The position numbers and the translations under genes are program-made. Below, piece after piece: positions 49,431 through 51,994 of a stretch of 51,994 nt of DNA (positions are counted from its first letter, which is position 1; every line of letters begins with the position of its first letter). The stretch spans positions 1-51,994 of the forward strand of contig JAILMY010000029.1 in NCBI GenBank assembly GCA_024692165.1, given 5' to 3'. The stretch is from Butyrivibrio sp. GTDB lineage: Bacteria; Bacillota; Clostridia; Lachnospirales; Lachnospiraceae. Below the pieces are notes generated by a model. It searched no databases. It was not told where the DNA came from and was given only the letters and a program-made list of their open reading frames with translations.

Positions 49431-50900
49431 TCAGCTGATGCTTCCCTTGATCCTCTGTAAGTTCTCGTCAGTCTCCTTGAGCATTTCCCGAAGAGAAAGG
49501 TTTTCATCATGTCCAAACTCGCAGATGGAATACTGAAGGTGATTCATATATCTGGTATTATCCGTAAGCAGTTTTGCATTCTGAACAGACATTTCTTCCC
49601 TAAGAAATTCTGCTTTTCCCTGCTCATCTGTAATCTCTAATACTGCAAACTCATCACCACGGATTCTTCCGTAAATACTCTTTTCTTCAAATACCTCTTT
49701 AAGGATTAAAGCCACTCTTTTAACTGCTCTGTCGCCTTCTTCCTTGCCAAACATGCTGTTAATGGTTTTCAAGGATTCCATGTGGATATATGCAACAATT
49801 GCATAGCTTCCTTCCTTAAACTCTTCCTTTAACAGATCATATGCCTTGGCAAAAAAGCCTCTTCTGTTAAGACCACCGGTCAGGTAATCCTGGTCTCCGA
49901 TATGATCAAGAACAGAGTCATCCCTTGCCAACTCTTCCTGAACTTCATAAAGTTCTTCGTTGGTCTTTTTCAGTTCTTTTTCAAGATATGAAACCCTTGA
50001 GGCTCCTGTAACAACGCTAAGAAGTGTATCAAAGAAATAATCAATGATCATATTTGCTGTGAACTCAGTTATCAGAAGTCCAAGCTGATACTCCCCTACA
50101 AATATAACTCCAGCCACAAGTACTGCAGGCTTATTCTCTGTAAGCTGAGAAATAATATCTGACACCTTTACTACTTTGTGAGCATCCATGGTGTCTTCGA
50201 GCTTTCCGTTTACAAGAGCGCTCTTAACGCAGATATGCTCAGGTCTTTTCCACCAGTATTTGACAGAATTCCTGATTTTCTGGTCATAAAGATAAATACC
50301 GCAGTTATTTAAACCGGACTTTTTGACACTCTCCGCAAAAACTTCGTAAACCTTCTCCTTGGGATACTTTCTGTTAAGGAGCATTTTTCCAACCCTTGAA
50401 ATAGCGGATAATGCTTCTGATTCAGGTTTGTCTACGAAGGAAAAAATCTTTGCCGCCTCATTAGAGGGAAGAGCCATATTATTAGCATAGAAAACCGCAT
50501 CACAAACTGCTTCATATCCCAACTGCTCAAACTGATCATGGTCAGTCTCAACTTCATTGACAGACATTACCTCCACATCCAGTCCTTCCTGCTTTGTAAG
50601 AGTAAGAACCGGAATACCCGAGAATTTATTCAGGAACGCATCCCTTTTAAGGATTGGCGCTCCTTTTCCAATCCTGTCTATATCAATGATGAGTGCATCA
50701 AAGTCCTCAGTATCTGCATAATCAAATACTGCCATATGCTGATAATCATATGGATTGTCTTCCTCATCCTCCGCAATAAGGTACTTGCCGGGCATGATGA
50801 CAAGGGTTATATCCTTGTCTCTTGCTGCCTGGCTTGCACCTACACAGATTCTTTTTACCTCTTTGTCCTCGAGCTCAGATACTAACAGTCCGATGTTCAT
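49431..50900 (-). CDS. LacI-type sensor / GGDEF protein (putative diguanylate cyclase)
   Basis: 489 residues, no membrane helix. The N-terminal part (1 to about 165) looks like a periplasmic-binding/LacI-type ligand domain used in the cytosol (MNIGLLVSELEDKEVKRICVGASQAARD). A middle region (about 165-310) has a GAF-like feel and a short coiled coil (VSYLEKELKKTNEELYEVQEEL). The GGDEF domain (about 330-489) has DYLTGGLNRRGF and signature RGDEF instead of GGDEF. No RxxD inhibitory site precedes it. RGDEF variants can be active, so cyclic-di-GMP synthesis is likely but not certain. It starts 11 bp after the gyrA stop and is probably co-transcribed. Confidence 0.82.
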   Translation of the reverse strand: MNIGLLVSELEDKEVKRICVGASQAARDKDITLVIMPGKYLIAEDEEDNPYDYQHMAVFDYADTEDFDALIIDIDRIGKGAPILKRDAFLNKFSGIPVLTLTKQEGLDVEVMSVNEVETDHDQFEQLGYEAVCDAVFYANNMALPSNEAAKIFSFVDKPESEALSAISRVGKMLLNRKYPKEKVYEVFAESVKKSGLNNCGIYLYDQKIRNSVKYWWKRPEHICVKSALVNGKLEDTMDAHKVVKVSDIISQLTENKPAVLVAGVIFVGEYQLGLLITEFTANMIIDYFFDTLLSVVTGASRVSYLEKELKKTNEELYEVQEELARDDSVLDHIGDQDYLTGGLNRRGFFAKAYDLLKEEFKEGSYAIVAYIHMESLKTINSMFGKEEGDRAVKRVALILKEVFEEKSIYGRIRGDEFAVLEITDEQGKAEFLREEMSVQNAKLLTDNTRYMNHLQYSICEFGHDENLSLREMLKETDENLQRIKGSIS

Positions 50901-50911
50901 AGGCCCCTCAT

Positions 50912-51935
50912 TTATTCCTCAATATCGTCGTCGTCTCTGCTGTCATCTTCTTGAATTTCATCTGGAATATCATCAATATTATCAATATCGTGATCACCGT
51001 CAGAAATCTTTTCTCTAACCTTCGCTATCTGTGCTACTGTTACACCCTTATCAAGATTGATCATCTTAACGCCTGATGTAACTCTGCCGTGGATTGTGAT
51101 CTCATCCATTCTCAGCTGTATGATAATTCCGGCACTTGTGATCATCATTATTTCATTATCATCGTTAACAGCCTTAACACCGATAACATTTCCGGTCTTC
51201 TCGGTAATCTTGTAACACTTAACACCCTTACCGCCTCTGAACTGACTGTGGAATTCATCCAGAGTTGTACGTTTTCCATAGCCTTTTTCTGAAACAATAA
51301 GAAGTGAATCACCCTGAGTATTCAGCTGCATTCCAACAATCTCATCCGTGTCATCAAGCATCATTCCGCGTACACCGATAGAAGATCTTCCTGTTGAACG
51401 AACATCACTTTCATCGAAGTGGATACACATACCATTCTTAGTAACAAGGAATATTTCGGCATCTTTTGTTACTGTCTTTACCTCGATAAGCTCATCATCA
51501 TCTCTGAGAACAATAGCTACAAGTCCTGTCTTTCTGACATTTGAGAAGTCTGTGATAGGAGTCTTCTTTACAGTACCCTTCTTGGTTACCATAAACAGGC
51601 TCTTTTCCTCATCCTCGAAGCCCTTTACAGGAATCATGGCTGAAATCTTTTCTCCTGGTGCAAGCTGAAGGAGATTAACTATAGCCATACCCCTGGAAGT
51701 TCTTGATGCCTCAGGAATCTGATATGCCTTAAGCCTATATACACGGCCGGTATTTGTAAAGAACATAACGTAGTTATGAGTTGTTGTCATAAGGATATCT
51801 TCAACAAAGTCACTATCGATTGTTGTGATTCCCTTGATTCCCTTACCGCCGCGGTTCTGTGATTTGAAGTTATCGATAGACATTCTCTTGATATATCCAA
51901 GGTTTGTCATGGCGATAACTGTATTAACATTTAGG
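50912..51935 (-). pseudogene. gyrA: DNA gyrase subunit A, C-terminal domain only (5' truncated)
   Basis: About 340 residues of the GyrA C-terminal DNA-wrapping beta-pinwheel. SQNRGGKGIKG is the GyrA box, and later blades repeat patterns such as RGMAIVNLL, IGVRGMML and QFRGGKGVK. The acidic tail (DDIPDEIQEDDSRDDDDIEE) is typical. The catalytic tyrosine domain is absent. Reading upstream past the listed ATG, the frame goes NTVIAM then meets TAA at 51947-51949, and the DNA beyond about 51935 encodes an unrelated EAL fragment. So either the gene is broken or, more likely, the sequence is chimeric at this end. Confidence 0.85.
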
Positions 51936-51994
51936 GTGCTGCCATCTTACCAGGGCTTCTGCTGCACCAAGACGTGGAACATCATCTTTAATAT
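51924..51994 (-). pseudogene. Fragment of an EAL-domain (c-di-GMP phosphodiesterase-type) gene
   Basis: Read on the minus strand from 51994, the frame gives IKDDVPRLGAAEALVRWQHPK, then C and TAA. GAAEALVRWQHP is the EAL signature block itself. The frame is different from gyrA and ends at the junction. Both ends are incomplete (window edge and junction). Confidence 0.8.

Follow-up and report, generated by a model that had tools for sequence, protein, structure and literature searches.

At one end of a draft contig from Butyrivibrio sp., the coding sequence of gyrA gives way abruptly to a short stretch of DNA that encodes part of an EAL domain. This raises the question of whether an essential gene has been broken in the organism, or whether DNA from two sources was joined by an error of sequencing or assembly. 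The window, i.e., the whole stretch of 51,994 nucleotides that was analyzed, is the entire contig G000:C219 (positions 1–51994) of a draft MAG consisting of 246 contigs and 3.14 Mb, which is 87% complete and 2.8% contaminated. A first-pass annotation had taken a contig-end chimera as the simplest reading of this locus, and the results described below bear this out: a donor for the foreign segment was found in a different Butyrivibrio species, and we hold it very probable that the contig end is an in vitro or in silico chimera between two species of the genus.

Results

The gyrA portion of the contig end extends over 50912..51931 on the minus strand and comprises the C-terminal part of the gene only, i.e., the DNA gyrase A beta-propeller. 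In the gyrA frame, the DNA gyrase A C-terminal domain (PF03989) was detected with E=1.4e-68, and the sequence is 77–92% identical in amino acids to the gyrA of relatives in the genus, most of which, among those searched, have a gyrA open frame of ~850–884 aa, e.g., 852 aa in G001. Alignment to 12 gyrA loci of the genus showed that these match the window up to 51931 (...AATGTTAATACAGTTATC...) and then go on upstream as gyrA (...EDLIPNVNTVIAM...), reading '...EDLIPNV-NTVIAM' in a gene of ~850 aa. Beyond 51931 the window shares nothing with these loci. Thus, the abrupt end of gyrA similarity, which the first-pass annotation had set at NTVIAM, is real, and its position is slightly further upstream, the preceding residues N-V being still gyrA-like, as seen from 'PNVNTVIAM'. 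From 50912 up to 51931, gyrA is an ordinary gene typical of the genus. Directly downstream of it, at 49431–50900, lies the gene of a 489-aa GGDEF-domain protein; a similar neighbor of 477 aa adjoins gyrA in G001.

On the minus strand, the gyrA frame reads ILKMMFHVLVQQKPW, a stop and then DGSTLNVNTVIAMTNLGYIKRM. The stop is an in-frame TAA at 51949–51947; it precedes the ATG at 51910 by exactly 13 codons, in agreement with the 11–13 codons originally proposed. The remaining stretch, for which 60–70 bases with an EAL signature in another frame had been suggested, measures 66 bases (51929..51994, minus strand) and encodes IKDDVPRLGAAEALVRWQHPKC followed by a stop in a frame other than that of gyrA. 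An open frame across the join is absent; a gyrA-EAL gene fusion was rejected, given that the frames differ and that the TAA interrupts the gyrA frame.

The source of this tail was sought with a degenerate pattern for RLGAAEALVRWQHPK. In a scan of one genome each of ~85,000 species, the pattern gave a single match, on JAILEJ010000521.1 of the MAG Butyrivibrio sp. RUI043, and the window from 51929 to 51994 was identical to that contig at 66/66 bases. The donor gene (562 aa, L063 1115–2803, minus strand) encodes response regulator, GGDEF, and EAL domains, and the tail is an internal piece of it that forms part of the EAL domain. With a 66/66 match to a real EAL gene, the EAL segment of the tail is more than a chance motif. 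When 60 other genomes of the genus were searched with the tail at the DNA level, only matches to the EAL motif of at most 34 bp were obtained, none of them full length, and a phage collection contained no match to the tail. A literature search found no paper naming the RUI043 MAG. Within the window's own assembly, the tail fragment has no other copy and lies in none of the 18 EAL-domain genes. None of their products is a close relative; the highest-scoring one is 33% identical in protein. A full EAL gene that carries the fragment, for which the first-pass annotation had proposed to look, was thus found in RUI043 but not in the assembly to which the window belongs.

We compared the two genomes through their shared genes. 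RUI043 orthologues of the window genes show ~66–76% DNA identity, except for pieces of tRNA type and a small number of short matches, and the gyrA of the window is 76% identical to the gyrA of RUI043 at the DNA level. Because the orthologues are only this similar, RUI043 is, judged from these identities, a species separate from the window organism. If 76% is taken as typical, the chance of a 66/66 identity by shared descent is ~1e-8. This bears on a reading in which the EAL gene belongs to an unassembled part of the window organism's own genome, the join being a chimera or a rearrangement within one genome. Genes must indeed be missing from a MAG that is only 87% complete, yet such a gene would have to be exactly identical to that of a different species whose other orthologues are far more diverged. 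Moreover, the neighbors of the donor gene (cmk, ispH, and their own neighbors, on contigs C186 and C4; the names cmk and ispH were assigned by eye from the protein sequences) are present in the window's assembly and are 71–80% identical to RUI043, and at this orthologous locus homology does not reach the EAL gene, for which no match was found there. We therefore regard an origin within one genome as highly improbable.

The junction itself was examined by comparing the sequences across the join, which read CCTAAATTTGG in the EAL donor, CCnAATGTTAATAC in the gyrA relatives, and CCTAAATGTTAATAC in the window; where the true EAL gene has CACCCTAAATTTGGTATGG, the window has CACCCTAAATGTTAATACAG. 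From this comparison it follows that both parents share AAT, a 3-base microhomology at 51929..51931 (minus strand), 66 bp from the contig end. A microhomology of 3 bases is only mildly unusual by chance. The junction was present in 0/78 other genomes of the genus, with up to 3 mismatches allowed; its occurrence in related strains had been named beforehand as an observation that would speak against a chimera. An exact 20-mer of the junction occurs in one IMG/VR contig (L088), where the sequences on either side of it bear no relation to EAL or gyrA; it is therefore a chance match and was rejected as a true copy of the junction.

The first-pass annotation had also reasoned that a real break in gyrA would require a second gyrA, and had proposed a search for an intact copy. 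No second gyrA was found in the assembly: the sole PF00521 protein, of 753 aa on C69, was considered for this role and rejected as a paralogue of the topoisomerase IV subunit A type. Such a copy is also not needed. The contig terminates within gyrA. Neither the 5' part of this gene nor gyrB nor recF is present in the MAG, which indicates an assembly gap; contig C75 begins on the far side of this recF-gyrB-gyrA gap and resumes upstream of dnaN. Thus, gyrA is interrupted by a gap in the assembly, at whose edge the contig carries a chimeric extension, and the evidence does not show that the gene is broken in the organism. In another MAG of the genus, gyrA is likewise cut near the start of a contig (G010:C91, L033), leaving an open frame of 407 aa, and breaks in gyrA therefore recur among draft genomes. 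The opposite end of the window, at positions 1–60, lies inside an apparent tRNA-Lys gene (CTT anticodon by eye) that was not called by ARAGORN because it is truncated; this end is 90% identical to RUI043 over 105 bp. The start of the window at this tRNA-Lys-like gene is a usual repeat-limited assembly break.

The assembly also carries an indication of how it was built. Two contigs of the same MAG, C186 and C4, overlap at their ends (C186:1–126 and C4:1–126; L076 and L077) by exactly 126 bp, and are therefore adjacent; the exact overlap is characteristic of de Bruijn assembly and suggests a k of ~127. Since the 66-bp tail is shorter than this apparent k-mer, a single short chimeric read, or a few of them, can account for it, and it forms a dead-end tip.

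These findings can be set against a genuine and very recent recombination or horizontal transfer, present in part of the population, that placed an RUI043-type EAL segment inside gyrA. In favor of this reading, the tail is genuine EAL coding sequence from a congener, and 66 bp would not suffice to tell a very recent transfer from a chimera. Recombination would, however, split essential gyrA in an assembly where a second copy was not found, its join is absent from all 78 other genomes of the genus examined, and the EAL tail stops at the contig end before it has reached the length of one k-mer. There is, in our view, very little likelihood that such an event produced the junction.

Discussion

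Donor identity, the difference in species, the uniqueness of the join, a tail shorter than k, and the position at the contig end together establish the case for a chimera, and the join was almost certainly made by a sequencing or assembly error, as an artefact rather than biology. We infer that library preparation or assembly was the step that produced it, and that the two Butyrivibrio species occurred together in one sample. One short read, or a few copies, may have joined ~66 bp of the EAL gene of the co-occurring species to the gyrA of the window organism, with the join placed at the 3-base microhomology; at the recF-gyrB-gyrA gap, where assembly was poor, the assembler would then have retained the chimeric read as a dead end that lengthened the contig.

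The relevance of the locus is one of quality control only. The final 66 bases (51929–51994, or alternatively 51932–51994) should be trimmed, there is no gyrA-EAL fusion to annotate, and the gyrA of this MAG should be marked as partial on account of the gap.

Chimeric reads joined at microhomologies have been described as a library-preparation artefact of FFPE samples (PMC8674242). These reads resemble the present junction in that two unrelated sequences share a few bases at the join; they differ in that the present case comes from a metagenome, with ~3 bases shared. The contig end also resembles the chimeric contigs that join two species, and the dead-end tips shorter than k, of short-read metagenome assemblies, and among the sequence features compared no difference was found: a verbatim piece of a related species stands at a contig end, and the tail is shorter than the k-mer and adjoins an assembly gap. 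With its donor traced, the present contig is a clear illustration of an end that is chimeric between species.
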